Origin: Diphasiastrum complanatum
Taxonomy: Eukaryota > Streptophyta > Lycopodiopsida > Lycopodiales > Lycopodiaceae
NCBI GenBank assembly: GCA_029204225.1
Contig: CM055113.1
Location: 20,109,798 to 20,173,797, forward strand
Length of the DNA: 64,000 bases
Direction: 5' to 3'
In this document: positions 8,312 to 55,926 of the stretch, one piece after another
How positions within the stretch are numbered: the stretch's first letter is position 1
Layout of the letters: every line of letters begins with the position of its first letter
The notes under the pieces: generated by a model
What the model was told of the DNA's origin: nothing
Database searches by the model: none
What the model saw: only the letters and a program-made list of their open reading frames with translations
Position numbers and translations under genes: made by a program

Positions 8312-8321
8312 CTGAAATCGT

Positions 8322-8804: not shown

Positions 8805-9059
8805 TCTTCCAAATCACTTCAAGGAACAATGAGATTGGATCTAGACTTTTCAATTAACTCCTATCTCTGATCAGATTTGGAAGAAACTTTATCACTTGAT
8901 TTCAATTAGATTTTGATTTTGAAAAAAAAATCTTGATCCTCAACGCTTCTAGAAATAAGAATTTCACAGAACCAATGGAAAATTGTAACAGAATCTTCCA
9001 AAAATTTGACAGTAGCTAGATCTGATAGATCAAAACTAGAATATGAATTAAAGTACGAG
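8805..9059. other. gypsy-1 leader region
   Basis: AT-rich sequence lies between two oppositely oriented gypsy parts. It is duplicated at 40,168-40,415 with few differences. No coding signal. Confidence 0.4.
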
Positions 9060-10870
9060 CAACAAGAACAAAGGCTTAACTACTGGAAGGAAAGAAGAAC
9101 AATCCAGGTGGTTTGAGAAAATGAAGATGCGGATTCAAAAAGTGAGTGTATACACTAAAGCAACAGTGGATCGACAACCGCATGTGCATGAAAGAAAGAA
9201 ACTTTTGAAGATGAAAATGATCCCAGCAATGAGTCTGATGAGCAAAGTGACAACGACGAAGCAGATGAGCGAAGCGAGGACAATGAGTCAGATGAGCAAA
9301 GTGACAATGAAAGTCAAGTCCCAGATCCGAATACAGTTGTAGGCAACAAATGTCCAATTCAAAATCCAAATCAAGTTCCAACAACAGATGGTAAAAGTCA
9401 GGATTAGATGGAAGTCAAGATTCAGATCAAGATGTGAAGATAATTGAACATCCTTTCGAGTTTCACTTCACCCATCAAAGTCCAGAACTTTACCTACATC
9501 CATGCCTTAATCTAGTCCATAAACAAGCAACTATGGATCGTCAAATTGAGAATATTGCTATGCTCAAAGAAAGTCGCTCAAGGCATTCACCAAACTTTCA
9601 AAATGAGGACTATATGGCACCGATATTCCATGGCTTGGAATTGAGTGGCTATTTAAAGGATTTGATCTGCAAACCAATTCAATTTAATTTGGGAGCTTTT
9701 GAGAATATTTTTTATTTTGACAACAATCTAATGGAGTATGAGGTATTCAACAAGGATATTGTCCACAATGAAGAGATTTCATTATTTCGTATAAATCCAA
9801 CTTATATCAATACTTTGGATTATTTTCAATGCCTCATAGATCCATTTGACAAGATCTTCAAGTGACTTCAATTGAAGAACCATATTCCTATGAATTCTCT
9901 AGAACTCAATTGTCAATATCTAATTCATCCGCTTATCCAGAATGCATGGATGTGAATAATGACTGTGAATGTTCTCTCAGTCAACCAAAACTCTATCGAA
10001 AACTGACTTTAAAATATGCCAGCAATTTGTATTAGTTTCTTTGGAGAAGTTTGCATTGCTGAGTGGATACTAAATCGGAGAATCTTTTATTGAGTAATGT
10101 CAACAATGATTGTTCATCAATGGTTATTTGGAACAATCGAAACATCAAATCTTTGGTTCAGCTTTGGAATGTATTTTTACTATTTGGGATTGATGCTTCA
10201 ATGATTTATATGGGCAACTTCAAATTTTATATTTCAAAACGAGAGTCGATTTTTGAGGTCAATCAGGTCAATTATTCACAATCACCTATGAATGAGGTGC
10301 TGACCAAATTTGAAGAAATATATTTTGGTCAACAATATGCCCAGGGATATGCTTCACTGTACAACAGAATGTCAACATTCATGTCGACTACTTCGTATGG
10401 AGCATTTATATGAGCAGCAATTCATCACTACCATTGTTTATGACATAATTATAATTTCCTTCGTAAATTGGCCAAACAACATGGATTGCCAGTTACAATA
10501 GAAGAGCCAGATGCAAGACAAAAACAAGAATCCAAGGGAATTGCATAAGCATCAGAGTTGGTATGATGTCGAGGAAATAGACAAAAGAGAATATTGTGTT
10601 GATACACTCTGTCCATTCCATACAGATTGGTTGCCAACAAACAATATGGTGCTTCATCACCCTCTTCTTCAACCATCACTTTTCCTTCATGGGAACAAGG
10701 ATTACAATCTAAAGCTAGCAAAAATGGATTCAATTCGACAGCTTTGGATGTGTAATGAGGCAATAATTTTGTGGATGACACATCCTCAATCATGAGTACT
10801 TGAGCAAGGCAATCAAGCTAATCAGACAAGCATCTTTATTTTGAGGACAAAAATGTTTAATTAGGGGGAG
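9060..10870 (+). pseudogene. gypsy-2 3' region with unknown ORF and polypurine tract
   Basis: The forward strand contains an acidic stretch (NESDEQSDNDEADERSEDNE) near 9,215-9,290, then a 143-residue open frame at 9,434-9,865 (DRQIENIAMLKESRSRHSPN onwards), more broken frames (NLLLSNVNNDCSSMVIW; KNKNPRELHKHQSWYDVEE), and a gypsy-like final segment with TSIFILRTKMF just before a polypurine tract (TTAGGGGGAG) at 10,861-10,870. Position immediately before PPT and LTR shows it is the 3' end of a gypsy element. I do not recognise the main ORF. It could be an env-like or additional ORF. The duplicate is at 40,418-41,715 with an internal deletion. Confidence 0.55.
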
Positions 10871-11668
10871 TGTCATGTACTTTTAGTACATTCGTGCTTA
10901 TACATGCAAGATAATATCCAATTTAAAGCTTTGTAGGCCCAAAAGGAGCCATTAACCTTAAGAACAAGGCGGTTCCCTCTTTAGGCCCTCCAAAGTAATT
11001 AATAAGGATAATAGGCCAATAAGGTCCCAATGTAGTTTAAATAATACTTAACAAGGGCTAACTATCCCTCAAGATAGTTATGTTTAGTTAAGTAAGACAT
11101 CAATTTGTGAATCTTTTGGCTCATTTGTAGGTGAGAGCTTCTTGCTTCCTCCTTGTGAATGTGAGCTATGGGAATTTCCTTTGTTAGGTCTCATGTGCCC
11201 TATCCACATGAATTCATGCACATTTTCCACTGATTGTACTCTTTCTTTCATTGCTAATGTGATTCAATGATGATCTCCATCTTTGTAGCTTTCTATGGAC
11301 ATGCTATCTTGATTGTCTTCTTGAAGAAACAAAACGTTTCTAATTACAAAGCCTTGCTAGCCTTCAGTCCTCAGCCCAACGAAGACATTCGCGAACTCGA
11401 AGATCTGGAGACACGAAGCACAAAAAGTTTCTTGAACACGAAAGTCAAAGGAAACAAAGAAGAACAGTTTACGAAGACGGAAGTCAAAGGAGACGAAGAC
11501 GAACGAATAGTGAACACGAAAGATCCAGAACGAGATTCCTTTGCGGTCCAGTACGAGAGAAAGGCATACGAGCAAAATGAAACCCGTTTTGCCCTCACAC
11601 TCCAAAGAGTACCAGCTAAGATCACGCAAGTACCCAGAAGTATAGAGATCTGATCTGATGACATGACA
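10871..11668 (+). mobile_element. gypsy-2 3' LTR, D1 copy 1
   Basis: It starts TGTCATGTAC directly after the polypurine tract and ends CATGACA, giving 7-bp inverted termini TGTCATG/CATGACA. The length is 798 bp, identical to the copy at 41,716-42,513. It contains an open frame described separately. Confidence 0.85.
11267..11653 (+). CDS. Hypothetical 128-residue ORF inside the gypsy-2 LTR
   Basis: The frame starts MMISIFVAFYGHAILIVFLK, a hydrophobic N-terminus, and continues with a charged region rich in Glu, Lys and Arg (VKGNKEEQFTKTEVKGDEDE). The duplicate at 42,112-42,498 encodes the same protein apart from one residue (Ser4 to Cys), and both opposite-strand frames are also open over much of it. 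The body has repeated GAACACGAAAGTCAAAGGA-type words, so it may be low-complexity LTR sequence, not a gene. No function recognised. Confidence 0.25.
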   Translation: MMISIFVAFYGHAILIVFLKKQNVSNYKALLAFSPQPNEDIRELEDLETRSTKSFLNTKVKGNKEEQFTKTEVKGDEDERIVNTKDPERDSFAVQYERKAYEQNETRFALTLQRVPAKITQVPRSIEI

Positions 11669-12346
11669 TCAGCAGATACTTCCTAGGCCGTGGCTAATCT
11701 GCCACTCTTGTAACTTCTTGACTACTTGCTTAATCACTCTAATCTTTGATTTACATAGAGCGACCATGCTTACTAGATGATACTTGACATATAGATCAAC
11801 AGAATACACACAGTGTAACAACAAAACAGTCTGATACAATAATTAATCAAGATGAAAAATACAGAATACTTGTTCACCTACGTGCGAAGACAATTCTGTC
11901 TAGGATCAGAAGATCCAACTATCCGCTAGTAAAGCGAGACGATTACTCATGAGATAACCACATTTCTCTCACGCCAATGCAGTGCGTGGGTATGCACGTA
12001 GTGCTCGAAGAATCAGAGAAGAAAATCAGTAGATGATATTGTAGCCTTCGCGCACATATCAATTTGTGTTGTGTCTGATCTCGAATGCAAATGTTTCTAC
12101 TGTTAATCGCGTGTCTGATTTTCTTTTTGTTCATTCTGAATTTTGCACTTTGGTTGAAACTATGTTGAATGCTATATTAATTTTATGTAGTGACTGACTA
12201 CACTCTGGAGGACTATAGGAGTGATTCAGTTGATAGTGTCCAGTGATCGCATCTGAACTCCATCCGAGACGAAGAGAGTCGTGCTTGATTCACCTTTGCG
12301 AAAGTTTCGCGAATCTGACGAATTCATCAGTCATCATTCTCAACAG
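11669..12346 (+). mobile_element. copia-E LTR/upstream region, D1 copy 1
   Basis: The segment ends TCTCAACAG directly before a primer-site word at 12,347, so its right part should be an LTR. Its left limit is not clear because it abuts the gypsy-2 LTR. A piece of it (about 11,885-12,010) recurs inverted at 33,590-33,760, and the whole recurs at 42,514-43,204. Confidence 0.6.
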
Positions 12347-12356
12347 TGGTATCAGA
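12347..12356 (+). promoter_or_regulatory. copia-E primer binding site, D1 copy 1
   Basis: TGGTATCAGA preceded by CAACAG. Copy 2 has the same word at 43,205-43,214. It is followed about 110 bp later by the copia-E gag start. Confidence 0.8.
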
Positions 12357-12458
12357 TCCCACCCTGTCATACTCTGACATAGCCGATAAGCTATCAGATC
12401 CAGGAGGCCAAGCATTTAGACAATCAACCATCAACAAGGAAACAAACTTCGAGAAGCA

Positions 12459-12492
12459 ATGGTTTCAATCAGCAGCATGCAGAGCAAGACTA
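12459..12492 (+). pseudogene. copia-E gag start, truncated at a deletion junction
   Basis: ATG at 12,459 begins MVSISSMQSK, matching the gag at 43,317. After about 11 codons the sequence jumps into the last part of the copia-A 5' LTR at 12,493. Comparison with copy 2 shows that this is a deletion of roughly 1.3 kb running from copia-E gag into the LTR. Confidence 0.8.
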
Positions 12493-12579
12493 TTCTTTGA
12501 TCAATCTTGTGCAATCACAACACCTCAGTAAGATCATGTAGGGTGTGTGGTGAAGTTCACACGTGCTAGAAACTTCACA
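12493..12579 (+). mobile_element. copia-A1 5' LTR remnant
   Basis: Only the last 87 bp of the LTR remain, ending in CTTCACA at 12,579, directly against the primer site. The intact LTR of the same family is 729-730 bp (see 16,977-17,705 and 44,039-44,768). Confidence 0.9.
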
Positions 12580-12591
12580 TGGTATCAGAGC
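12580..12591 (+). promoter_or_regulatory. copia-A1 primer binding site
   Basis: TGGTATCAGAGC immediately follows the CTTCACA end of the LTR. The same arrangement is found in copia-A2 at 44,769. Confidence 0.93.
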
Positions 12592-13289
12592 TTCATGCTT
12601 TGAAGATGTGAGGGTGTATACATCAAATCATCAGTGTTTTTGCTTGCAGGAACTCAGATTCTGGAGAGGGATTCAAACTTCGCTGAGAAACAAGCAATCT
12701 GTGGATCATAAGTGGATCAAATCAAGGATGATCTGATCCATCGGAGCTCTGTACGGATAGAGAGCTCACACGTGTGAAATCAGCCCTCATTAATGAGTGC
12801 TACTTCTCAAGGAATGATCCAAATTTGATGTTTTATAGCTTGTTGGATAGGTATTGAAGAGTAGAATGTATTGCTCTTATTTCTAAATCAATTTGATTTG
12901 TTTTTAGAGAAGTTTTAGGCAATCAGAGAGTTTGAGAGGGTACTCAACTCGTGGGATATGCCAAAGTGAGCACACATCTGTCTTTTATACCATTTTCATC
13001 AATTTTCACTTTCAATAAAGTAGAATTGGATAGAAGTGAGTGTTCTGAGGTCTTAGACTTTCCATTTCACACATATTACTGTGTTTGAGTTGAAAGTAAG
13101 TTCCTAGAGAGTTTATCAGTACTTTGAAACTCGTGGGAGAGATAGACTTCTTGCTTGCATGTGTTTCTTTTTTTGTGACTGAAGCAAGATCCAAATTCAA
13201 GATAGATTGACTTTCAGTATTGAGAATTTGTTCTCACATTTGTTGCTAGATTTCATAGGGTGGATCAACGTATGTGTTAGATCCTAGAC
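12592..13289 (+). other. copia-A1 leader and decayed gag N-terminus
   Basis: An ATGAGTGCTACTTCTCAAGG start of a gag-like peptide (MSATSQGMIQI) is seen near 12,795 but stops at once. The rest has no usable frame. Copy 2 shares the first part (44,781-45,160) and then has a deletion. This is probably a gag N-terminus destroyed by rearrangement. Confidence 0.45.
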
Positions 13290-16200
13290 TGAGATAGCAA
13301 GCAACATCCTTTCAAGAGAGATCAGTACATGCACCACTGCCAAGGGAGCTTGGGATACTCTAAAAACAATCTATGAAATCAAAAATACTTCTAGATTTTT
13401 TACACATGAAACCAAATATTTCTAAGTTATCATAGAGTAGATGAGAGTGCTTCATCATATGTCATGAGAGTTAAGGATCTTCATCAAGAGCTAGCTGGTA
13501 TTAGTGATGCTCTTAAGGACACTGAACTTGTTCAAGTAGTCCTAAATGGACTTAGAGATGAATATTGTGCAATATTGTGCAGACTTATGCTGTCAGAGAG
13601 GATCTTCCATCCTTGGAGACACTGCAAGGTGTTCTCATTGCTGAAGAAAGCAGGCAAGAGAACAAGATGCTGAGGATCAACAAACTTTCATTGAAAGATG
13701 GTGGAGATGACAAAGCACTCTTCATCAGAGACAAGTCAAGAGGCAAGGGAAAAGGACAACAACACTTCAAGAAGGACAAAGCCAAAAAAGGTGGTGAGGA
13801 TCAATCCTCACAAGCTGCAACATCCAGTGGCAAGAAGAAGTTGTCAAAGATCAAGTGTTTTTTCTGTAGCAAGAAAGGACACTATGCATCAAATTGTTTC
13901 AAGAAGAAGAACCAATCTAAGCAAGCTAACCTTACTAACGAGGATGAGTGTGAGGGTGTAGAGAGTGAAAGAGAGGATTCATTAATGATGTCTACTTTTT
14001 CATCTTTTCCATTTAAGAATAAAGAAGTCTGGTGGATAGATAGTGGGGCTAGTTCCCATATGTCTAGTTCTAGGAACTCTTTCACTAATCTCATGCCATA
14101 TCTAGGTGCAAAAAGGTTAATCTATATTGCTAATGATGTAGAGTGTAGGATTGAAGGAATAGGTAGCATTCCATTGCATGCATCATCATCAAAATCTTTT
14201 TGATTAAATGATGTACTATATGTACCTAGATTGACTAAGAATCTCATTAGTGTAAGACAATTGTTTGATAGTGGATTGGATGTCAAGTTTCAAGTTGACA
14301 AGTGTATAATCTCAAGAGAAAATGAAGTTATTGCTAGAGGATCTAGAATTGGTAAGTTGTTCAAACTAGATTCTAGGGAGAGTGCTAACATTTCAGATAT
14401 TGCTTATGAGACCAAGGTTCTACAGGAGGATCTGTGGCACAAGAGATTAGGTCATCCCAATTTCAAAGCCATGCAATCTATGGTCAAAGAAGGAAAAGTT
14501 GTTGGTCTACCAAAGACACTGTCAAAGGAGCTTCTACCTTGTGAAGCTTGTGTGCTGGCAAAGTCACACATAAGGCCTTTTCCTAGTTCAAGTATCAAGA
14601 CAAAGCAACCAGTTGAACTTGTACACTCAGATATTCATTTCTCATCAACTAAGAGCAAAGGAGGAGCCAACTGCTTTGTCTCTTTTGCAAATGATTATAC
14701 AAGACATTCTTGGATCTATATGTTGTCTTCAAAAGCCATAGTCTATGATGTTTTTCTTACTTTTAAAGCTTATGTAGAGAAGCAATTTCCTTTCAAGTTA
14801 AAAGCTTTAAGAAGTGATAGTGGAGGAGAGTACACTTCTAATAAGTTTAAAGACTTTTGTGAGAGAGAGAGTATTCAAAGAGAGTTTTCTTGTTCATATA
14901 CTCCTCAACAAAATGGAGTTGTTGGGAGAAAAAATAGAACTTTGTGTGAATGTGCAAAAGCCATTAGGCTAGAAGCTTCTCTGCCTAAAGAATTTTGGGG
15001 AGAGGCAGTTGCATGTGCAAACTATCTTTGTAATAGGCTTCCAAATCTTGCAGTAGGAGGAAAGACACCATTTGAGATGTTCTTTAAGAAAAAGCCTAAG
15101 GTAGATCATCTTAGGATTTTTGGCTGTGTATACTTTGTGCATGTGCCTTTAGAAACTAGGAAGAAGGAAGATCCTAGTGTAGTAAAAGGAATTTTTGTAG
15201 GATATGCATCCACTAAAAAAACATACAAGATTTATTTGCCCTCTACTGACAAAAATGTTGTTATTAGAGATGTGATCTTCCATGAAGATCAGAAGTTTAA
15301 CTTGGATGATGCACAGATCAAGGAGACTCATGCAAGATCAATCATCAATCTTGATGTTGTTCAAGAAGAGGTGAGGCTGAGGCTTGAGGAGGAGCAAATT
15401 CAAGCTACCACACCCAGAAGATCTACACGAGCAAGATCTGAGCCAAGGAGGCTCACATATGATAAAGAAGGAAGGCAAGTGAAAGGTGAAACTTCCTATC
15501 ATGCACTTTTTATATCAGATGTAGAGCCTAAGGATGTCCAAGAAGCTTTTCAATCCAAGGAGTGGGTTGAAGCAATGACCCAATAATTTGAAGCCTTGAT
15601 GTCAAATAACACATGGGAGCTTGTGGAGCCACCAAACAACATGCATGTGATTGGATGCAAGTGGGTATTCAGAATCAAGTATAAACATGATGGATCTATC
15701 AATAAGTATAAAGCAAGACTTTGTGCCAGAGGCTACTCACAGATTAAAGGACTTGACTATGAAGATACCTTTGCAGTAGTTGCAAAGATGGTAAAAATTC
15801 GAATACTCATCTCTCTTGCATGTTTTCACAAATGGAGTATGTTCCAGCTTGATGTTTCTAATGAATTTATCAAAGGTTACCTTGAGGAGGAGATTTATAT
15901 GGAGCAGCCTCCAGGTTTTGTGAAGGAAGGTGATGAATCAAAAGTTTGTCTTTTGTTCAAAGGTTTGTATGGACTGAAGCAGGCACCAAGGTCTTGGTAT
16001 GCAAGGCTAAATTGTATTCTCATATCACTTGGATTTTGTCTAAGTGAATATGACCCTTCTCTGTATTATAAGTTTGTAGATAACTTTGTAATCATTCTTC
16101 TCATCTATGTAGATGATATCATTCTTTGTGGAAACAATGAGAAGTTAGTTGAAGAAACTAAGCATGCACTTGGTACTGAGTTTAAGATGCAAGACTTAGG

Positions 16201-22526: not shown

Positions 22527-22699
22527 GTTGGTGGCACCTTACCGGAGCTTACTACACAGGGGAGACGGGAAATCATTTTTGCCTAGAATACATCAGCTAT
22601 AGCCTGGAGTCTGAGATTGTCCATGCAAGTTTATAGATGCTGCTACTTTCTGAGCTGGAGAAAAGCAGAAGATAATTGAAGTTACGAGAATATACGAAG

Positions 22700-23918
22700 A
22701 TGGCTCTTGGAGTATTGCCAGCGATGAGTGTCATAGCTCTTCTCAGCTTAGTTATGCTACAACCTTCTACTCATGCAAGTCAAGTTCCGGCGTTTTAATT
22801 TTCGTCTTTGGAGATTCCTCTGTCGATACGGGCAACAACAACTATTTGCCCAATAGTCTGACTAGAGCAGATAATCCTCCTTATGGTAGAGATTTTGATC
22901 CTCCAGGTCCAACAGGAAGATTTTGCAATGGCAAACTTACTGATGATTACATAGGTAGGTGCACCAATGACTTCATCCAAATTTTGTGGCATTGATCGTT
23001 GTATTGTACCTAAAAGTAAATATTCTTTATCTAGTCGTAGAGTGTCAATTAATTACGGCCTGGGGAGATAATTAATCTGATTGTGATCTTGATATTTCAC
23101 AGCTGAATTTCTGGGCCTTCCATATCCCATAGATTTGTACAACCCTCAAGCACAAGGCCAGAAGCTCCTCCAAGGTGTTAATTTTGCATCAGCGGGTTCA
23201 GGCCTTCTTGACCAAACCGGAAATGCAACCGTAAGTGACGACTGGCAACTCTGGTTGCCAGTTTGAGCTTGAGATCAGTGGGGTGTGAGTACGGGCATGA
23301 TTGCCAATCTAGTATCATTTAGTATCATCTAGTATCAAATAGACTTAACGCCTTGTATACTCCGCATAGATGATCAGTCATATTAGATCCCTCGTTGTTT
23401 AGTTTTATAGGTTATATTATATACTCATGTACTGACTAAGCGCTTATGATGGACATATATAGGGTTCTATCTCTTTTTTGAAGCAGTTGCAGAATTTTAT
23501 AGATGTCCTGAGAAATATATCACAATCAATCGGCCAAGGAAATGCGACAAAATTGATTGCCGGCTCCATTTTCCTGATCAGCAGCGGAGGTAACGATTTG
23601 CTCGATTACCAGCTAAATGTGAGCCAAAGAGCACAGTTCAATGCAAAGCAATTTAATTCACTGCTGGTCTCAAAAGCACTGAACTACAATCAGGTAAGCT
23701 ATCTTTTTGCTTCGAGATTTTGCATAATCCACGTCGTGATGACGATCTGATATTGCCTCTATCGACAGACTCTTTACAACTTGGGCGCTAGAAAGATGGT
23801 AATTGTATCCTCTGCTCCACTTGGGTGCCTGCCAGTAGCTCTCACCGTGTTCCATAGCCCAGATGGAAGCTGTATTCGAAGAATAAACTCCCAAGGTGTT
23901 AATTTTGCATCAACGGGT
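22700..23918 (+). pseudogene. GDSL esterase/lipase, exons 1-4, broken
   Basis: ATG at 22,700 opens a signal peptide (MALGVLPAMSVIALLSLVML, cut expected after THA). A one-base shift in a T run creates a TAA at 22,796-22,798 just before block I FVFGDSSVDTGNNN, which holds the catalytic Ser. Exon 1 ends at 22,954. Exon 2 (23,103-23,230) holds block II GVNFASAGSG, exon 3 (23,463-23,693) holds block III GGNDLLDY, and exon 4 starts at 23,769 (LYNLGARKMVIVSSAPLGCL). All introns are GT-AG. Exon 4 breaks at about 23,895, where it is fused to a repeat of exon-2 sequence. The last exon with the catalytic Asp-His (block V) is missing. An inverted partial copy is at 55,152-55,926. Such enzymes are secreted ester hydrolases. 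Confidence 0.93.
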
Positions 23919-37194: not shown

Positions 37195-37930
37195 ATGTTG
37201 TTTTGAAGTTGACTTGGTTCAGGTTGGAAGTTGAAGCTCTCGGTTGAAATTTGATAGGGAATCCTCAGTTGAGAATTGATAGAAAGGTCCGGTGGTGAGC
37301 TGAGAGGGCTTCGGTCGAGATCAGATAAAGTACTTCGGTTGAGATCTGATAGAATACGTTGGTTGAGATCTAATAGAGTACTTCGGTTGAGATCCAATAG
37401 AACGCTTCGGTCGAGATCCAACAGAACACTTCAGTCAAGATCTAACAGAATGCTTCGGTCGAGATCTAACAGAACGCTTCGGTCGAGATCCAACAAAATG
37501 CTTCGGTTGAGATCTAACAAAATGCTTCAGTCGAGATCAAGATGGAAGGCTCCGGTCAAGATCTAACAGAAAGCCTCTGGTTGAGATATGATAGAAAGCT
37601 TCGATTGAGATTTGATAGAAAGCTTCCGGTCGAGATCTGACAAGATGTCTCTAGTCAAGATTTGAGAGAAGCCTCCGGTGAGATCTGACAAGATGTCTCC
37701 GGTCGAGATTTGAGAGAAGCCTCCGGTCGAGATTTGATAGGATGTCTTCGATCGAGATTTCACAGGTTGCTTCGGTTGAGACTAGATAGAAAGCTTCCAG
37801 TTGAGATCTTACAGGATGCCTCCAGTCGAGATGTAACTGAAAGGCACCAGTTGAGATGCGACAGAAGGTCTGTGGTCGAGATGTCAATTGAAAGGCTCGG
37901 GTGAAATCTGATCAATGAGCATCGGTTGAG
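37195..37930. repeat. 24-bp minisatellite in the gypsy-B leader
   Basis: The unit CTTCGGTCGAGATCCAACAG plus AACG (24 bp) is repeated in tandem with substitutions. The central part from about 37,330 to 37,530 keeps exact 24-bp spacing and the outer part varies by a few bases. Because 24 is a multiple of 3, both strands are open: forward it reads LRSRSNRT repeats (96 residues, 37,276-37,566), reverse it reads DLNRSTLL repeats. It lies between the primer site and gag, so it is a repeat in an untranslated leader. Confidence 0.92.
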
Positions 37931-38915: not shown

Positions 38916-39695
38916 AGGCTTATACCGAGGCCAGATGCCTGGCCCGGCGCTTGAGCTTTCCGCTCTGCCCGCGACTCATTTTAAATTCTATCTTTACAAA
39001 AAAATACTCAAAAAAGGCGCTGGAAATTGCGCATCTTGTTGTAGTGAGAATGAGATATAGACTCATTTGGATTGGCAGATTTGTCGCATGATGATGCGGC
39101 AAATGATAACGAGTAACCACCAAATGAATAAGTGTGACAGTCCAATCTATTTCAACTCATGATATCAATCTGATTGCTCATAGATGCAATCACACTTTAT
39201 TATTTGACTAGTTGACATCAAACAAGAAGTCGACGCTTGTGAGTACACAAATTGTGGTCATGATATTTTTGTGATACATAAATTTCTTTATTCACTTGTG
39301 GATATGGCAACTATTGTTGATAGAAATTGGAATTTAGTGTGTTGATAGACAACAATTTTCAAAAGTGAGATCCATTTACATTCTATAACATACCGTGGTT
39401 TATACCGAGGGGCCTTTTTTCCATCAGTCATGATATTACTCTCGGTGAACAGAGTATTTTGGAATGCTTCTTGGCCTGCCTGACCCTCCCTATAACCCTC
39501 TCTATAACATTCTTTATAACCCTCTGCATAACCCTCCCCATAAATCTTTGAAAAAAATGGTGAAATTTGCAAGGCTTATACCAAGGACAAATGTCGGACT
39601 TGACACTCGAGCATTCCACTCCCTCGCGACTCATTTTAAATTCTCTCTCCACAAAAAATGCTCAAAAAGACGTTGGAAATCGTGTGTCTTGTTGT
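38916..39695 (-). mobile_element. CACTA-like ends, inverted copy
   Basis: Reverse-strand order: terminus CACTACAACAAGACACACGA at 39,695, subterminal TATAACCCTC repeats near 39,480-39,540, a second terminus CACTACAACAAGATGCGCAA at about 39,048, and the GGTATAAGCC word at 38,918-38,930. It is an inverted relative of 17,843-18,605. Both termini point the same way, so they are not a terminal inverted repeat pair. Confidence 0.62.
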
Positions 39696-40167
39696 AGTGT
39701 ATAGACCTGCTAAAAACCACATAATCATAGCGTCATTATTTATTAGTTCAGGATCACACTCTAATCTTAGATGCTTGACCCGTTCAATACACTCTCACAC
39801 CCTTTCTTTCTTTTCCATTTTAATTTTACTTAAAAGTAGGAAAGGATCTTCCAAAAACTTTCTATGTTCAAATGTTGTGATTAGGCTAGCTTTAACCACC
39901 TCTCGATCCATACATTTAGTCTCATCCTGGTTGTAAAGCCAATCTTGTGTTGCTCATGTTAAGGCCATAGGAAATAGCTTAAGTTTATTTTGTGGAAAAA
40001 ACTTCACCATAAACCTCACATGATTTAGAAAAGATTTTGAGAAATCTGACTAGATCATACAACCCATTATACTTTGGTAACTCTAGACGAGGTGATTTTT
40101 TAACAATAACTTGTGGAGCAACAATCGGAGGGTCAGGTAAATCAGGTTCATTATACAAATCAGCCAT
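39695..40167 (-). pseudogene. gypsy-1 gag, D1 copy 2
   Basis: Start MADLYNEPDLPDPPIVAPQV, then SPRLELPKYNGLYDLVRFLK and CEVYGEVF, followed by a frame slip in a poly-T/A run near 40,000. After that, the same WLYNQDETK and FEHRKFLEDPFLLLSKLK sequence as copy 1 is seen. It is cut by the CACTA-like terminus at the same base as copy 1. Confidence 0.75.
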
Positions 40168-40417
40168 TCTTCCAAATCACTTCAAGGAACAATGAGATTG
40201 GATCTAGACTTTTCAATTAACTCCTATCTCTGATCAGATTTGGAAAAAACTTTATCACTTGATTTCAATTAGATTTTGATTTTGAAAAAAAGATCTTGAT
40301 CCTCAACGCTTCTAGAAATAAGAATTTCTCAAAACCAATGGAAAATTGTAACAGAATCTTCCAAAAATTTGACAGTAGCTAGATTTGATAGATCAAAACT
40401 AGAATATGAATTAAAAT

Positions 40418-41715
40418 ATGAGCAACAAGAACAGAGGCTTAACTACTGGAAGGAAAGAAGAACAATCCAGGTGGTTTGAGAAAATGAAGATGCGGATTCA
40501 AAAAGTGAGTGTATACACTAAAGCAACAGTGGATCGACAACCGCATGTGCATGAAAGAAAGAAACTTCTGAAGATGAAGATGATCCCAGGAATGAGTCTG
40601 ATGAGCAAAGTGACAACAACGAAGCGGATGAGCGAAGCGAGGACAATGAGTCAGATGAGCAAAGTGACAATGAAAGTCAAGTCCCAGATCCGAATACAGT
40701 TGTAGGCAACAAATGTCCAATTCAAAATCCGAATCAACTTCCAACAACAGATGGTAAAAGTCAGGATTAGACGGAAGTCAAGATTCAGATCAAGATGTGA
40801 AGATAATTGAACATCCTTTTGAGTTTCACTTCAACCATCAAAGTCCAGAACTTGACCTACATCCATGCCTTAATCTAGTCCATAAACAAGCAACTATGGA
40901 TCGTCAAATTGAGAATATTGCTATGCTCAAAGAAAGTCGATCAAGGCATTCACCAAACTTTCAAAATGGCACCGATATTCCATGGCTTGGAAGTGAGTGG
41001 CTATTTAAAGGATTTGATCTGCAAACCAATTCAATTTAATTTGGGAGCTTGTGAGAATATTTGTTTTTTTTGACAACAATCTAATGGAGTATGAGGTATT
41101 CAACAAGGATATTGTCCACAATGAAGAGATTTCATTATTCCGTACAAATCCAACTTGTATCAATACTTTGGATTATTGTTCAATGCCTCATAGATCCATT
41201 TTACAAGATCTTCAAGTGACTTCAATTGAAGAACCATATTCCTATGAATTCTCTAGAACTCAATTGTCAATATCTAATTCATGCGCTTATCCATAATGCA
41301 TGGATGTGAATAATGACTGGGAATGTTCTCTCAATCAACCAAAACTCTATCGGAAACTGACTTTAAAATATACCAGCAATTTGTATCAGTTTCTTTGGAG
41401 AAGTTTGCATTGCTCAGTGGATACTAACTCGGTGAATCTTTTATTGAGTAATGTCAACAATGATTGTTCATCAATGGTTATTTAGAATAATCGAAACATC
41501 AAATCTTTGGTTCAGCTTTGGAATGTATTTTTACTATTTGGGATTGTTGCTTCAACGATTTATATGGGCAACTGCAAATTTTATATTTCAAAACGAGAGT
41601 CGATTTTTGAGGTCAATCAGGTCAATTATTCACAATCACCTATGAATGAGGTATTGACCAAATTAATCAGACAAGCATCTTTATTTTGAGGACAAAAATG
41701 TTTAATTAGGGGGAG
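40418..41715 (+). pseudogene. gypsy-2 3' ORF region, D1 copy 2
   Basis: It matches 9,060-10,870 but lacks about 515 bp after GAGGTATTGACCAAATT (41,664). Frames are shorter than in copy 1 (the 143-residue frame is split by a deletion at 40,965 and a T-run indel at 41,065). The polypurine tract AGGGGGAG lies at 41,708-41,715. Confidence 0.6.
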
Positions 41716-42513
41716 TGTCATGTACTTTTAGTACATCCATGCTTATACATGCAAGATAATATCCAATGTAAAGCTTTGTAGGCCCAAAAGGAGCCATTAG
41801 CCTTAAGAACAAGGCGGTTCTCTCTTTAGGCCCTCCAAAGTAATTAATAAGGATAATAGGCCAATAAGGGCCCAATGTAGTTTAAATAATACTTAACAAG
41901 GGATAACTATCCCTCAAGATAGTTATGTTTAGTTAAGTAAGACATCAATTTGTGAATCTTTTGGCTCATTTGTAGGTGAGAGCTTCTTGCTTCCTCCTTG
42001 TGAATATGAGCTATGGGAATTTCCTTTGTTAGGTCTCATGTGCCCTATCCACATGAATTCATGCACATTTTCCATTGATTGTACTATTTCTTTCATTGCT
42101 AATGTGATTCAATGATGATCTGCATCTTTGTAGCTTTCTATGGACATGCTATCTTGATTGTCTTCTTGAAGAAACAAAACGTTTCTAATTACAAAGCCTT
42201 GCTAGCCTTCAGTCCTCAGCCCAACGAAGACATTCGCGAACTCGAAGATCTGGAGACACGAAGCACAAAAAGTTTCTTGAACACGAAAGTCAAAGGAAAC
42301 AAAGAAGAACAGTTTACGAAGACGGAAGTCAAAGGAGACGAAGACGAACGAATAGTGAACACGAAAGATCCAGAACGAGATTCCTTTGCGGTCCAGTACG
42401 AGAGAAAGGCATACGAGCAAAATGAAACCCGTTTTGCCCTCACACTCCAAAGAGTACCAGCTAAGATCACGCAAGTACCCAGAAGTATAGAGATCTGATC
42501 TGATGACATGACA
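41716..42513 (+). mobile_element. gypsy-2 3' LTR, D1 copy 2
   Basis: 798 bp, TGTCATG..CATGACA, same length as copy 1. It contains the 128-residue frame at 42,112-42,498, nearly identical to the one in copy 1. Confidence 0.85.
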
Positions 42514-43204
42514 TCAGCAGATACTTCCTAGGCCGTGGCTAATCTGCCACTCTTGTAACTTCTTGACTACTTGCTTAATCACTCTAATCTTTGATTTACA
42601 TAGAGCGACCATGCTTACTGGATGATACTTGACATATAGATCAACATAATACACACAATGTAACAACAAAACAGTCTGATGCTAGTAAGCAATCAAGACA
42701 AAAAATACAAAATTCTTGTCCGCCTGCGTGCGAAGACAATTCTATCTAGGATCAGAAGATCCAACTGTTCGCTAGTAAAGCGAGACGATTACTCATGAGA
42801 GAACCGCGTTTCTCTCACGCCAATGCACTGCGTGGGTATGCACGTAGTGCTCAAAGAATCAGAGAAGAAAATCAATAGATGATATTGTAGCCTTCGCACA
42901 CATATCAATTTGTGTTGTGTCTGATCTCGAATGCAAATGTTTCTGCTATTAATCACGTGTCTGAGTTTCTTCTTGTTCATTCTGAATTTCGCACTTTGGT
43001 GGAAACTATGGTGAATGCTATATTAATTTTATGAACGTAGATCAATAGTGATTGACTACACTCTGGAGGACTGTAGGAGTGATTCAGCTGAGAGTGTCCA
43101 GTGATCGCATCTGAACTCCATCCGAGACGAAGAGAGTCGTGCTTGATTCGCCTTTGCGAAAGTTTCGCGGATCCGACGAATTCATCAGTCATCATTTTCA
43201 ATAG
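42514..43204 (+). mobile_element. copia-E LTR/upstream region, D1 copy 2
   Basis: Matches 11,669-12,346, with an extra GAACGTAGATCAATA near 43,033 that copy 1 lacks. It ends ATTTTCAATAG before the primer-site word at 43,205. Confidence 0.6.
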
Positions 43205-43316
43205 TGGTATCAGATCCCACCCTGTCATACTCTGACATAGCCGAGAACCTATCAGATCCAGGAGGCCAAGCATTTAGACAATCAACCATCAACAAGGAAA
43301 CAGACTTCAAGAAGCA

Positions 43317-44038
43317 ATGGTCTCAATCAGCAGCATGCAGAGCAAGATCTGCACGATACTTGATTCTTCAGGATCTAACTTTCTAGCCTGGAAAGTTAAA
43401 ACATCTTTGATACTCAAGGGAAAAGGACTCTTCCCCTGGGTGGATGGCACAGAAGAAATGCCTATGACAACATGCAAGGAGCTACGTGAATGGAAGGAGA
43501 AAAACGACAAGGCAGTAGCCTTGCTATCATCTTCCATCGAAGATAGCCTCACACTTGACCTGGCTACACTCTCCAAGGCTAAGGAGATGTGGGATGCATT
43601 ACTCACTAGATTTTAAATGAAATCAAGAAGTCATATCATGATGCTGGAAGATCAGATGACGAATTTGTAGTGGGATGGAAAAGACCTCACCTCTTTCGTA
43701 AGAAAGATGAAGAGACAATTTCTATCGCTACATAACTCTGGAGCAGAGAATGTAGTGTCAGCTGAGAAGCAGCTCATGGACCTGTTGAGAGCCTTACTCA
43801 GATCATTCCATATGACAAGAACCCTGCTCAAAAAAAATCCCGCCATGAACCTCGAAAAGGCGATTGTCGAGATTCGAGAGGAAGTCATGGGCAGAGAACA
43901 TCTGGATCACAAAGATGGTTCTGACCAGGCCCTCTACGGCAACAAAGAAAAATCAAAGAAGCAATTTAAGTCTAAGAGGGAGTCCAATCAGAGGCAGGAT
44001 CGTGATCAACAAGCAGAGGGAACAAGCAAGGGCAACTG
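43317..44038 (+). pseudogene. copia-E gag N-terminal two thirds, D1 copy 2
   Basis: Start MVSISSMQSKICTILDSSGS, then FLAWKVKTSLILKGKGLFPW and KAVALLSSSIEDSLTLDLAT and KEMWDALLTRF, the standard capsid region of copia gag (UBN2). A TAA occurs right after LLTRF, and another frame carries VRKMKRQFLSLHNSGAENV and EKAIVEIREEVMGREH. It ends at SKGNC, where the copia-A2 LTR begins at 44,039. The missing knuckle part is represented by 17,706-17,842. Confidence 0.88.
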
Positions 44039-44768
44039 TGTGAAGATTATTAAAATATTATCTTCCTATCTCGAGTTTGGGGTCATGTCCATGGTGATTT
44101 TCACTAAAATTCATGTTGTACATAAAAGGAGTTTGAATTGAGCACATATCCTTCTAGTGTAGTTCGGATTTGAGTTAGATAGGCTCAATTATGATGACAT
44201 GCAGATGTTTAGATAGCATGCAAAGTTTTACTGTATGCATGCAAGCCACATGCAATTAGTGCATGCAACATGCAAAGTAGTTTATGTGATCTACACATGT
44301 CTAGGCAATTTTATGAGTTGACATGCAGTACATGCAACATCCATGCATGCAGTTACACATGTGGATCTCTGGTAGGTGAATTAGTTCAGTTAAGTGGACT
44401 TTCCATGCAACTCCACTATAGGAATTCGAGTCTCTCTCATGTAGGGAAAGCTGAGCATGTTTTGCCATATTGTGAATATTGAGATTTTGGTGTTTTGGAC
44501 CCATTCTCTCTCTACCCAAGTTTTCTATGCTTGATTTTCTCTCTCTACCCGAGAGCAGCCTCTTTTTCCCATACTGAACACTTAGAATTATTTCTGACAT
44601 TCATTTCTCATAGTGAAGAGTTAGATTTTTTCATCAAATGTATGTCATTGTGCTCTTGTCTTAGATTTTTCAAGCATACTGTTCTTTGATCAATCTTGTG
44701 CAGTCACAACACCTCAGTAAGATCATGTAGGGTGTGTAATGAAGTTCACACGTGCTAAAAGCTTCACA
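44039..44768 (+). mobile_element. copia-A2 5' LTR
   Basis: 730-bp LTR, TGTGAAG..CTTCACA, followed at once by the primer site TGGTATCAGAGC (44,769-44,780). The left flank is copia-E gag ending CAACTG, which matches the ACTGG right flank of copia-A1 if one base is lost. Confidence 0.95.
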
Positions 44769-44780
44769 TGGTATCAGAGC
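44769..44780 (+). promoter_or_regulatory. copia-A2 primer binding site
   Basis: TGGTATCAGAGC adjacent to the LTR end, as in copia-A1. Confidence 0.93.
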
Positions 44781-45164
44781 TTCATGCTTTGAAGAGGTGA
44801 GGGTGTATACATCAAATCATCAGTGTTTTTGCTTGCAGGAACTCAGATTTTGGAGAGGGATTCAAACTCGCTGAGAAACAAGCAATCTGTGGATCATAAG
44901 TGGATCAAATCAAGGCTGATCTGATCCAGCGGAGCTCTGTATGGACAGAGAGCTCACACATGTGAAATCAGCCCTCATTAATGAGTGCTCCTTCTCAATG
45001 AATGATTCAAATTTGATGTTTTATAGCTTGCTAGATAGGTATTGAGGAGTAGAATGTATTGTTTTGGTTTCTAAATCAATTTGATTTGTTTTTAGAAGAA
45101 TTTTAGGCAATCAGAGAGTTTGAGAGGGTACTCAACTCATGGGATATGCCAAAGTGAGCACACA

Positions 45165-46187
45165 CTGCAACATCCAGTGGCAAGAAGAAGTTGTCAAAGA
45201 TCAAGTGTTTTTTTTGTGGCAAGAAAGGACACTATGCATCAAATTGTTTTAAGAAGAAGAACCAATCTAAGCAAGCTAACCTTACTAACGAGGATGAGTG
45301 TGAGGGTGTAGAGAGTGAAAGAGAGGATTCATTAATGATGTCTACTTTTTCATCTTTTCCATTTAAGAATGAAGAAGTCTAGTGGATAGATAGTGGGGCT
45401 AGTTCCCATATGTCTAGTTCTAGGAACTCTTTCACTAATCTCATGCCATATCTAGGTGCAAAAAGGTCAATCTATATCGCTAATGATGTAGAGTGTAGGA
45501 TTGAAGGAATAGGTAGCATTCCATTGCATGCATCATCATCAAAATCTTTTTGCTTACATGATGTTCAGTATGTATCTAGATTGACTAAGAATCTCATTAG
45601 TCTAGGACAATTGTTTGATAGTGGATTGGATGTCAAGTTTCAAGTTGACAAGTGTATAATCTCAAGAGAAAATGAAGTTATTGCTAGAGGATCTAGAATT
45701 GGTAAGTTGTTCAAACTAGATTCTAGGGAGAGTGCTAACATTTCAGATATTGCTTATGAGATCAAGGTTCTACAGGAGGATCTGTGGCACAAGAGATTAG
45801 GTCATCCCAATCTCAAAGCCATGCAATATGTGGTCAAAGAAGGAAAAGCTATTGGTCTACCAAAGACACTGTCAAAGGAGCTTCTACCTTGTGAAGCTTG
45901 TGTGCTGGCAAAGTCACACATAAGGCCTTTTCCTAAATCAAGTATCAAGACAAAGCAACCAATTGAACTTGTACAGTCAGATGTTCATTTCTCATCAACT
46001 AAGAGCAAAGGAGGAGCCAACTGCTTTGTCTCTTTTGTAGATGATTATACAAGACATTCTTGGATCTATATGTTGTCTTCAAAAGCCATGGTCTATGATG
46101 TTTTTCTTACTTTTAAAGCTTATGTAGAGAAGAAGTTTCCTTTCAAGTTAAAAGCTTTAAGAAGTGATAGTGGAGGAGAGTACTCAT
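45165..46187 (+). pseudogene. copia-A2 zinc knuckle, protease and part of integrase
   Basis: The frame begins at GKKKLSKIKCFFCGKKGHYA directly after leader-like sequence, so the capsid was deleted. The zinc knuckle is CFFCGKKGHYASNC. TAG replaces the Trp before IDSGASSHM at about 45,380. From 45,410 a 261-residue open frame covers protease C-terminus, HKRLGHPN, CEACVLAKSH, and the integrase up to LRSDSGGEY, then stops at a junction at 46,187. Residues such as SKSFCLHDVQYV are intact where copia-A1 has a stop. Confidence 0.93.
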
Positions 46188-46816
46188 TAATATAATATAC
46201 AGGCAAATTGAAAAGACATTTCGACTCCTCTATAGGGTTGGATTCATCATCAGATGTATTTAGTCCAATAAAAGAATCCTGGAAAACATCAGCATTTACA
46301 TCAATATAAGTCACTTTCCTTATCAGGAGTGTCAATAAGAAAGTGACTGATATCCTTAATAGCTAACTGAACAGAGGATGATGCAAAAGGAGGGTCAACA
46401 ACATAAACTTCCTCATCATCTGGGATCTAAACTAACAGGAAAAGTACGAAACTACTCTGATATTCGACCAATCGACATATCTTGTTGCAATATAGACACA
46501 TTGAACTGCTTTTGAAAAGTTCAAACAATTTGGTGAACATTCTATCCGGTCTATGTCTGAAAGCTGGGAAGAAATGAACAAGATCAGTATAATGCATGTA
46601 CTGGAGTGGACCTATGGAGAAAACATGCTTACTAAGTATATCTCTGAATCTAACATAATGTTCATAAAATAAGTCAGAATTTGGTTGTGCAGTCCTGAAA
46701 ACATGTAGATATGGCCTGAATAGGTTGTGGAAGTAGTCTAGGTTTTCAGTAATCCCAAATTTACTAAAAAATGAACTCAAGCCTGAATCTCGTGAGGATC
46801 CTGAGGAAGAGGCCAT
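46188..46816 (-). CDS. Unknown gene, probably two exons, truncated
   Basis: The reverse strand has ATG at 46,816 (MASSSGSSRDSGLSSFFSKF) and an open frame to 46,427, with aromatic-rich HYVRFRDILSKHVFSIGPLQ and HYTDLVHFFPAFRHRPDRMF. After FKSS a GT at about 46,497 and an AG near 46,435 could bound an intron. The next segment, down to 46,200, reads acidic sequence (DDEEVYVVDPPFASSSVQLA; SDDESNPIEESKCLFNLPVY) with one frame slip near 46,315. It is cut at 46,187 by copia-A2. I do not recognise the family. Composition and length suggest a real gene, not a transposon. It is divergent from the histone-like gene at 47,631 and shares the repeated upstream motif. Confidence 0.45.
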
Positions 46817-47630
46817 GGTAGTAACGTGAATATCGCACTTGTGTGCAAGGGAGAACTGAAACAAAACTAACTATCAAGATGGCGCACAAGAGGGATATGT
46901 ACAGCAGGCAGATACCAAATATCGCACTTGTGCGCAAGTAGGTATCGTTGCAAGCAAACGAACAACAATGCGTGCGCACAAGAGCGATATGCCGCGAATT
47001 TCGATAACGGAAAAGGTAAAAAATTAATCGGTTTTCATGCCATTTATACTAAATTTTTGCACGTGATGGACAAAGGACACATGTCTACTTTCAATTGGAC
47101 TACAGGCACTGGCACATGTGAGGTGACACTCGGACACGTGTAACCTGGACACGTGTCGCGTGTTCATTCGTTTGCTCGACAACACGTGTCGCTCTCGCAT
47201 TTTCTCATACAAATCCCACACTTGTAATGTGACCGGGTAACACATGTTGCTCTCGCATTTGTCCATACAACTCCCACATGTGTGATAGGATGTTCTTTCA
47301 CACGTGCGAATCGTGATATAAAATCATAAACTTCGATGAATTTTTTTCACTTTTTTGTTCGCTCCGCATATCGCACTTGTGCGCATCCTTCACAATCGAT
47401 GTTCCTCCTACCGCCTTCCATGCGCACAGGTCCGATACATCTGCCTACGAGTCTCCCCGTATCACACTTGTGCGTCTTTCTTCAAAACTAATCGCTCTCT
47501 CTTATATTTGGCTCGCACAAGTCCGATATACCGTATGTCCGTACATATCGGTCCTCTGCGAGGTGTTTATCATCCCTCCCTGCTCATCCTAACCGTCACG
47601 CACAAGTCCGCTATCCCATAATACACGTCC
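46817..47630. promoter_or_regulatory. Intergenic region with repeated TATCGCACTTGTGCGC motif
   Basis: Between the divergent genes the word ATCGCACTTGTGCGC, in either direction and with 1-3 changes, occurs at about 46,828, 46,875, 46,920, 46,975, 47,366, 47,418, 47,461, 47,510 and 47,598. The part 47,090-47,300 adds CACGTG (G-box) palindromes at about 47,136 and 47,150, and near-matches (CACATG, CACGTG in CACACGTGCG) elsewhere. A TATAAAA box lies at 47,317-47,323 on the forward strand. The last motifs are close to the ATG at 47,631. Confidence 0.7.
47317..47323 (+). promoter_or_regulatory. TATA box candidate for the histone-like gene
   Basis: TATAAAA preceded by GTGA, 308 bp upstream of the ATG. 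Plausible but not proven. Confidence 0.4.
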
Positions 47631-48160
47631 ATGGATAGGAGAAAGCAGACAAGGATGGACTTCTTCTCTCCTGGATCATCCTCAACCCCTGCGGTTGCCA
47701 TTACACCACCCGCTAGACCTAGAACGCGCAACCGTAGCAGGTGGCTCTCTGAGATACGCAAGTATCAGAGATCAACAGCTCTGTTGATCCCAAGAGCTCC
47801 ATTCTACCATGTTTTTCGAAACATAACAAGAAATGATCTTGGACAGCTAGTTAGATTCACACCCAGTGCTCTTCAGTGCCTTCAGGAGGCTGCTGAAGAT
47901 TACATTAGCCTTTTTTTGAGGATTTTTTTTTGCTTGCAATCCATTCCAAGAGAGTCACCATAATGCCCAAGGATTTTCAGCTCCTGATGAGAATGAGGGA
48001 TAGGTATTGTAGGTTACACATATCTCAGTCTGCTACTCCTAGACCAACTCCTCTAGATAGGACCGATTTTTCTACGAAGCATCCTAAGAAGCAGACAGCA
48101 TCCCAAGAGAGCTCCGAAGAAAGTAAGGAGGGTAGACACCATAGATTCAATGAAGCCTAA
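47631..48160 (+). pseudogene. Histone H3 variant, CENH3-like, one-base frameshift
   Basis: The first frame, from ATG 47,631, gives a divergent 40-residue tail (RRKQTRMDFFSPGSSSTPAV) and then the histone fold: EIRKYQRSTALLIPRAPFYH, VRFTPSALQCLQEAAEDYIS. After the T7 run at 47,911-47,917 the frame is lost. One base away it continues LLAIHSKRVTIMPKDFQLLM, the H3 alpha-2/alpha-3 sequence, and ends at TAA 48,158-48,160 after a long Ser/Glu/Lys tail (ASQESSEESKEG). LLIPRAPF and LQEAAEDY, and one extra residue in the loop between PF and RF compared with H3, are CENH3 hallmarks. Canonical H3 has LLIRKLPF and LQEASEAY. There are no introns, although plant CENH3 genes usually have several, so it may be a retrocopy. 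The protein would sit in centromeric nucleosomes if functional. Confidence 0.85.
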
Positions 48161-48401
48161 TCCGAAATCCATTATAGATAACGCTGGTGTTGATAATGTT
48201 GTAAATATAGCTACATCTGTTTTGGATACCCCTTTAATTCATGTAGATACTACACATCCACCTCCTCCTCCTCCTCCTCCAAATTTTTATACATATATAG
48301 ATTCGGATGATTATCTTAAATTTGAGAAAGATATATCTGATGCTATAGATACAATTGGTACTCCTTTTTGTTTCAGACTAGATGAACTTGATCTAGTATA
48401 A
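48150..48401 (+). CDS. Hypothetical 83-residue proline-rich ORF
   Basis: MKPNPKSIIDNAGVDNVVNI, a run of eight Pro encoded by CCT repeats, then acidic DSDDYLKFEKDISDAIDTIG and FCFRLDELDLV. It overlaps the end of the histone-like frame by 11 bases in another frame, so it may be the original C-terminus of that protein after a frameshift, or a separate small gene. No family recognised. Confidence 0.3.
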   Translation: MKPNPKSIIDNAGVDNVVNIATSVLDTPLIHVDTTHPPPPPPPPNFYTYIDSDDYLKFEKDISDAIDTIGTPFCFRLDELDLV

Positions 48402-48689
48402 ATTTTAGAGTTCTAGATTGCTTGGATCTCAAAGACAGACGGGCTTCTATCAGTGATCATGTGATAGAGTCCGGGCTTACATTCTTGCATTATGACATTG
48501 CAAGAGATTCATCCAATGAGTTGTTGGGGCTGAGTAGCTTTTTGCTTTAGGCCTTCAAGGAGAATAATGACACATTGTCATAGTGTCTGACAAGTGGTTT
48601 TACACCAGCAACAAAGCTGTTTTATGCATTAACATTGGCATTGTCAATGGAAATAGTTCTCAGAATTGCAGCTAAAGAAATTTTAATCT
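48402..48689 (+). other. Degenerate coding-like stretch
   Basis: A forward frame reads FRVLDCLDLKDRRASISDHV and FALTLALSMEIVLRIAAKEI-like segments with stops at intervals. It may be a decayed gene part. I cannot name it. Confidence 0.3.
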
Positions 48690-54861: not shown

Positions 54862-55926
54862 AGCATGCCTTGTGTCCATACTTGAAACCTACAAATCGAC
54901 ACACTTGAGATTCCATTTGGCACAATTTTCTGTGCACCACTCAAAGATTCTGACTCATTCTAAGATATGAATTGAGGTATTTTCCCTGGGACTAATGTAA
55001 AACTGACTTTGCAAGGATTGGTTTTTTCATTTGACGTGGCATGTGAGTTGTAGCATGAGTCCGTAGACAGCTGCGAATACACAATTGCAAGAAACATCAA
55101 TAATCCAGAAATCGTTGCTTCGACCTTGTTTAAATTTTTGTCTTTGCTTACCTGATTTGGTGGGGTTTTGAATTGCTGCCAGGATGGAATCGTAGACATT
55201 TCCATAGACAAAGTTTACTCCAAGTAGCTGGCAAGGAAGCGTTGAGATGTTTGATTGCAAGCCTGCGTTAAAATCCTTCGTTTGGGAGTATATTCTTCGA
55301 ATATAGCTTCCATCTGGGCTATGGAACACGGTGAGAGCTACTGGCAGGCACCCAAGTGGAGCAGAGGATACAATTACCATCTTTCTAGCACCCAAGTTGT
55401 AAAGAGTCTGTCGATCGAGGCAATATCAGATCGTCATCAATATGTGGATTATGCATAATCTCTAATTACAAGCAAGAAGCAAAAAGATAGCTTACCTGAG
55501 TGTAGTTCAGAGCTTTTGAGACCAGCAGTGAATTAAATTGCTTTGCATTGAACTGTGCTCTTTGGCTCACATTTAACTAGTAATCGAGCAAATCGTTACC
55601 TCCGCTGCTGATCAGAAAAATGGAGCCCGCAATCAATTTTGTTATATTTCCTGGGCCGATTGATTGTGATATATTTCTCAGGACATCTATAAAATTCTGC
55701 AACTGCTTCGAAAAAGAGATAGAACCCTATATATGTCCGTCATAAGCACTTAGTCAGTACACTGAGTATATAACCTATAAAACTAAACAACGAGGGATCT
55801 TATAATATGATTGATCATCTATGCGGAGTATACAAGCCGTTAAGTCTATTTGATAGAGAAACCACAAGAGGAACTAAATGATACTAGATATGGCAATCAT
55901 GCCCTCGTACTGATCTCACCCCACAA
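54862..55926 (-). pseudogene. GDSL esterase/lipase, exons 3-4, inverted copy
   Basis: Exon 3 is 55,726-55,496 (SKQLQNFIDVLRNISQSIG; LISSGGNDLLDY then TAG where the other copy has Gln). Exon 4 is 55,407-55,152 (NLGARKMVIVSSAPLGCLPV; FNAGLQSNISTLPCQLLGVN; YDSILAAIQNPTKS), longer than in the first copy. Intron sites are GT-AG at the same positions. A downstream stretch to 54,960 carries a frame (NPCKVSFTLVPGKIPQFIS) that does not look like lipase block V, so the last catalytic exon is absent here also. The homology upstream ends within intron 2 at about 55,926. The copy at 22,700 is the forward partner. Confidence 0.92.

Follow-up and report, generated by a model that had tools for sequence, protein, structure and literature searches.

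Organization of the histone locus

The window, by which we mean the whole 64,000-nucleotide stretch of Diphasiastrum complanatum DNA analyzed here, lies on contig C22 of a genome of 1,744,706,496 bases in 5176 contigs. It contains an H3-like histone gene whose fold is divided between two reading frames (Table 1): the short tail MDRRKQTRM and helices alpha-N to alpha-2 are read in frame 1, and alpha-3, together with a Ser/Glu/Lys tail, is read in another. Both frames match Pfam Histone, with E values of 1.6e-14 for the first piece (47631-47912) and 4e-07 for the second (47909-48157), and no intron interrupts the fold. In these respects the locus is as the sequence-only reading described it, down to the run of exactly seven T at 47911 where the frame breaks. 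The roughly 50-residue C-terminal tail that it reported is also present, but is merely the remnant that precedes the next stop; in six copies elsewhere in the genome that were chosen for open frames (L009-L013, L023), the extension is continuous with the fold and the frame runs about 200 residues beyond it.

The fold carries the motifs LLIP and EAAEDY, and its loop 1 exceeds that of the aligned canonical H3 rows by one residue. Library proteins are 43-58% identical to it in the best local stretch, and no close copy is found among them (both statements for 120 of the 140 matches). A PDB chain search returned the centromeric protein cnp1 first with canonical H3 close behind, and a 365-aa query read across the gaps matched 30 proteins, every one of which has a histone domain. 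Open copies from subfamilies A and B score 95 and 104 bits, respectively, against Pfam Histone, and with the window pieces these place the protein in the histone H3 superfamily, with an H3-type fold.

Table 1. Features of the histone locus, in window coordinates.
Feature	Position	Strand	Basis or remark
Internal fragment of a histone-carrying element, subfamily A	46193..48683	.	blastn and by-eye alignment of the tail
Start of the divergent "left" gene, 129 aa then TAG	46430..46816	-	decays; cut at 46193
Putative shared divergent promoter region	46830..47614	.	ten ATATCGNACTTGTGCG copies in five inverted pairs
Promoter core with nine CACRTG sites	47060..47306	.	site scan and alignment
H3-like histone gene	47631..48160	+	Pfam Histone in both pieces
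T7 run at the frame break	47911..47917	+	8 T in 6/6 copies chosen for open frames
Remains of the C-terminal extension of the histone gene	48150..48401	+	further frame; strong period-3 signal

The histone gene forms part of a larger unit, from 46193 to about 48683, in which it adjoins a divergent gene on the opposite strand across a symmetric region with an array of inverted 16-mers. This 2.5 kb holds the divergent ORF, a 0.8-kb intergenic region, the histone, and then coding remains as far as about 48683, a limit set by aligning the tail by eye. By blastn it is 86-90% identical to the same six open copies, at most over 46184-48616. Inverted ends and a transposase-like gene, both found in complete copies (see below), are missing from it.

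The left gene starts with an ATG at 46816. Its counterpart in L010 reads about 280 aa from its own ATG, and the two proteins are 87% identical over 169 residues. No homologue with E up to 1 was found for it among 5.8 billion proteins, and no Pfam family scored above its cut-off; a single-sequence structure model of the ORF is of low confidence (mean pLDDT 50.7) and was set aside. The region between the two genes comes within 14 bp of one ATG and ends 17 bp short of the other. Ten matches to ATATCGNACTTGTGCG with up to 3 mismatches occur, against 0.99 expected from whole-window shuffles, and all ten 16-mers lie between the two start codons, with the partners of a pair 53-56 bp apart and with a core of about 380 bases that separates two pairs on its left from three on its right. 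At the same threshold there are 6 sites in L009, 8 in L010, 9 in L011 and 8 in L012, compared with 10 in the window, and the region can be aligned across L009, L010 and L012. The predicted divergent promoter with its inverted 16-mers is thus a feature of the family, largely kept in four other copies. The CACRTG sites of the core are of the E-/G-box type; over the whole window there are 107 of them against 54 expected, nine of which fall within the 250 bp of the core.

The T run and the broken reading frame

Frame lengths vary among the 150 matches to the window piece that were listed: 54 frames are exactly 99 residues long, 23 are 113, and 28 reach at least 270. The 99-residue frames were at one point attributed to one-base insertions in the T run, an explanation that was rejected when 20 copies were read and a base change was found to make the stop. 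These 20 were picked by hand at about every seventh row of the match list and judged by eye at the codon after the T run: 10 are open, 6 carry a stop and 4 show a one-base shift, "open" applying to that spot only. In the copies with a stop, one and the same Glu codon at the end of the T homopolymer has repeatedly undergone a nonsense change (L031-L069; 47911-47920 in the window). In a tree of 19 sampled copies, the six open copies and the window, the stops fall in both main halves, and the change therefore arose at least twice. The T run is a recurrent hot spot, either of mutation or of assembly error.

Copy number and structure of the complete element

A search of the genome with the window piece gave at least 150 matches at 87-100% identity, the window included (5193 loose candidates), and the matches listed cover every contig from C1 to C24 with at least one each. 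The true copy number is probably larger than 150 and may be in the thousands, although some copies may be segmental duplicates, as L018 and L019 are 99% alike over 8.8 kb. The Pfam histone model gave at least 153 matches (6325 candidates). At the top of its list stand 13 rows near 164 bits, eight of which were read and are all canonical H3, while many of the lower-scoring rows lie in open frames of about 330 residues. Fifteen loci drawn from these matches, a choice biased toward long open frames, fall into three subfamilies, with six in A, the window's own, eight in B and one in C.

The sampled copies align up to sharp common ends. Three complete copies with both ends measure 9305 bp (A_C2), 8681 bp (A_C7) and 8850 bp (B_C9), and inverted ends beginning CATTAGAGGAGTTCTC and CATTAGGGCCCTTTTT stand on both sides of all three; the end sequence of A is CATTAGAGGAGTTCTCAATATC and that of B CATTAGGGCCCTTTTTGGACTC, and each recurs in inverted orientation on the opposite side. 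When as many as 4 mismatches are allowed, the loci examined contain eight A-type and eight B-type ends. No target-site duplication flanks any of the three complete copies. For B_C9 an empty site was found: when its flanks are joined they align to two copia copies of the window at about 85%, and no gap falls where they meet.

A complete element of about 9 kb carries a transposase-like gene, so labelled from its position and from acidic motifs seen by eye, three genes without recognised relatives, and the H3-like gene. These partners are common to A and B by blastp: the transposase-like protein aligns in three pieces at 36, 42 and 52% identity, an upstream N-terminal piece that we take to belong to it at 37%, one piece of the left gene at 33%, ORF4 at 34% and a small fifth gene at 29%; the larger left-gene piece of A found no blastp match in B. 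The fifth gene lies near the right end on the minus strand (L011 7603-7992, L017 6632-7267). Its by-eye likeness to a BAH domain was dropped for lack of Pfam support, and its best Pfam row in A is TnsA-like_N at a sub-threshold 18.5 bits against a cut-off of 26.5.

In 25 Pfam scans of 23 different pieces only Histone exceeded its cut-off, and the superfamily is therefore left unassigned; a CENP-T_C row for the histones stays below the Pfam cut-off. No hAT domain was matched in the pieces scanned by Pfam, and no 8-bp target-site duplication was seen. A PDB profile search with the transposase-like pieces, used as pieces only, returned no match, and NCBIfam gave nothing useful in five proteins.

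From these results we consider it highly probable that the window holds a decayed piece from the interior of a DNA element, and that this element is dispersed, has inverted ends and repeatedly counts an H3-like histone among its genes. The window copy itself is dead, with broken frames, lost ends and no transposase-like gene. Among the origins offered by the sequence-only reading, its third option, a diverged transposon-borne histone, is the one that fits, with the histone inside a dispersed element. A functional host gene with an assembly error is contradicted by the recurrence of the promoter, the neighbouring genes and the ends in other copies, and a processed retrocopy fails to account for that recurrence.

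The element could instead be the relic of an endogenous DNA virus, or of some other large mobile element that is not a cut-and-paste transposon. Histone genes do occur on selfish DNA in the form of viral histones (PMC9145170), a likeness that the present gene shares. The compact multi-gene unit with its divergent regulatory region, the partner genes without recognised relatives and the lack of a target-site duplication would all suit such an origin. However, inverted ends, a copy length of 8.7-9.3 kb and an empty site do not, and no virion gene was recognised in the pieces scanned. IMG/VR scans with the histone piece, the histone alignment, the divergent ORF, ORF2 and the pattern of 16-mer pairs confirmed no relative, which is a weak negative, the scan with the H3 alignment having itself confirmed none. 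Unlike the viral histones, the gene sits between inverted ends, in at least 150 copies in one genome, with no viral relative in those scans, and we regard a viral origin as quite improbable.

Three subfamilies of transposon histone

The subfamilies differ in where the fold lies. In A and C it is near the N-terminus and is followed by a long C-terminal extension, and B carries it at the C-terminus, preceded by a proline-rich stretch. This polyproline stretch, between the H3-like start and the fold of B, is long and of variable length (L014-L019, L021, L022). All eight B copies have, upstream of the fold, MSEEMA and then an H3-like stretch, in which ARTKQTAR is exact in two copies and altered by one or two changes in the other six, one of the changes being a stop. 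The H3-like start and the fold share one open frame in none of the eight copies, and their union is read across copies: L017 reads the start in one frame with the Ser/Arg stretch that follows, and L015 reads that stretch in one frame with the fold. Subfamily C has the start MARTESTAR and the fold in a single frame, and another C-like stretch reads MARTKSTAR; A starts with MDRRKQTRR. The C stretches are at L020 4323-5318 and L027 3716-3787, and L020 also has A-like stretches nearby.

Within the fold, a Trp before L-x-[E/D]-I is present in all 15 transposon sequences and in none of the 123 library proteins that contain the motif. H113, R116 and T118 are present in all 15 folds, and 14 of the 15 keep D123; these four residues build the H3-H3 bundle and loop 2 in canonical H3. 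The longer loop 1 noted by the sequence-only reading holds for A, and is absent from B and C, where the loop is one residue shorter than in A.

The sequence-only reading took the window gene for a CENH3 copy, and the alternative weighed against the transposon histone was a host CENH3 gene, as a paralogue or a retrocopy, whose T run had been wrongly assembled. The LLIP and EDY motifs do resemble CENH3, as does, in subfamily A only, a loop 1 lengthened by one residue. In a histone tree of 101 columns, with long branches and a bootstrap that has not settled, the transposon histones, represented by four A folds, four B folds and one C fold, group in a single clade (95/83), and ten green CENH3-type rows group apart from them in another (97/89); among the ten only P0068 and the Arabidopsis sequence are named CENH3, and the others, including P0067, were assigned by their place in the tree. 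P0067 is a D. complanatum protein, and its grouping with CENH3 suggests that the host probably has a CENH3 of its own. A tree with the window histone alone gave no firm placement. The expected link with CENH3 fares unevenly in the tree: the CENH3-type clade excludes the transposon rows, yet AU tests do not reject a grouping with CENH3 (p 0.43, and p-AU 0.488 with the transposon and CENH3 rows held together). What speaks against CENH3 is the multi-copy context with common ends. At least 149 other copies exist, those examined have the same promoter and neighbours, and matches in such number at 87-100% identity do not describe a low-copy host gene. Additionally, the genes lie on a mobile element, B and C do not have the longer loop and start like canonical H3, and all fall outside the ten-row clade that includes the host's own P0067. 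We judge a host CENH3 paralogue or retrocopy with an assembly error extremely unlikely; a CENH3 identity in the wider sense is not supported, though the tests do not formally reject it.

Selection on the element genes

Between subfamilies silent sites are saturated, with pS at about 0.79 and pN at 0.29-0.39. Within A, dN/dS is 0.24 (0.13-0.41) for the fold, or 0.22 by another averaging, 0.49 (0.36-0.65) for the left gene, 0.48 (0.20-1.09) for ORF4 and 0.71 (0.49-1.09) for the C-terminal extension, and in B it is 0.45 (0.22-0.88) for the fold and 1.35 (0.49-4.64) for the transposase-like ORF, all from rows chosen for open frames, which lowers the values somewhat. Only the fold of A shows clear constraint, and the left gene shows moderate constraint; for ORF4, the extension and the transposase-like ORF there is no firm constraint.

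These values bear on whether the histone is passive cargo, that is, a host H3 captured once by transduplication and without a role for the element, as in the fungal hAT elements discussed below. Elements with hundreds of inactivated H3 copies do exist (PMC6710886), and here too the frame is lost in many copies, 10 of the 20 sampled being broken at one spot of the fold. Mere cargo would not be expected, however, to keep its fold across three subfamilies whose silent sites are saturated, to show constraint on the fold of A, or to travel with partner genes common to A and B, and we judge this explanation unlikely.

Relation to known systems and a possible role for the histone

Histone H3 is only rarely known as transposon cargo. 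The nearest precedent is that of Dothideomycete fungi, in which hAT DNA transposons of about 9.5 kb with TIR carry a captured histone H3; 26 copies, 23 of them apparently functional, are reported for Pyrenophora, and 784 H3 copies inactivated by RIP for Pseudocercospora fijiensis (PMC6710886). The element described here is like these fungal elements in having TIR, a length of about 9 kb, many copies and an intronless H3-like part inside. It differs from those elements, which have a hAT domain, an 8-bp duplication and an H3 that comes from the host's own gene and is inactivated by RIP in most species, in that it shows no Pfam transposase domain and no duplication and has a strongly diverged H3, retained in three subfamilies along with partner genes. 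In the open literature that we searched, which misses most subscription journals, we found no description of a histone-carrying transposon in plants.

Two further systems join a transposon to chromatin. Fungal DNA transposons encode a TET/JBP dioxygenase that is thought to aid escape from silencing (PMC12730594). Those elements, too, carry a chromatin-related gene, but theirs is an enzyme that acts on DNA, found in fungi and in many transposon lineages (PMC12730594), whereas here it is a structural chromatin protein in a clubmoss. The VANC protein of the Arabidopsis VANDAL transposons has anti-silencing activity and targets tandem repeats in non-coding parts (PMC10398659). VANDAL is likewise a plant transposon with an extra gene and with repeats in a non-coding region; VANC is not described as a histone there, and the 16-mers here are putative binding sites of an element protein. 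By analogy with the TET/JBP and VANC precedents, the H3-like protein would act on the chromatin of the element.

We therefore offer, as a tentative but plausible reading drawn from these analogies, that the protein may work as a transposon-made H3 variant or mimic. It might enter nucleosomes, or might occupy the readers and writers of the H3 tail by means of its H3-like start, and could thereby maintain the element in open chromatin or help it to move. In that case an element protein would bind the 16-mer array as its address. A fuller version, which we think doubtful, is that the elements represent a new superfamily in which an H3 variant of their own is a fixed gene that replaces or mimics H3 with an H3K4-like start (ARTKQTAR in B) and, together with a protein that reads the array, would shield the element from silencing. 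Transposon enzymes that act on DNA methylation and H3 cargo in fungal elements are known already; should a lineage have retained a histone and remodelled it across several subfamilies, this would mean that selfish DNA is able to produce a chromatin subunit of its own. Such a lineage would offer a direct test of whether a genomic parasite uses an H3 variant to escape silencing, and would supply H3 variants shaped by natural selection, whose tails and loops are unusual.

Surroundings of the fragment

The window is a mosaic of copia and gypsy-like pieces, of which Pfam assigns only the copia at 45158-46192; the remaining element families were called by eye. A mosaic segment at 8314-14843 is directly duplicated at 39676-46192, with pieces 94-97% identical. 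Its end forms the left edge of the histone fragment, and the copia stops abruptly at 46192 because the duplicated segment ends there. The 2.5 kb that begins at 46193 has no match of at least 150 bases elsewhere within the window, and Rfam at gathering scores finds nothing in the window. Two fragments, at 22654-22992 and 55030-55425, resemble GDSL lipase genes. Near them lies a 91% inverted repeat that pairs 23293-23894 with 55282-55904. Finally, a degenerate tandem array of about 22 copies of a 24-bp unit occupies 37308-37841.
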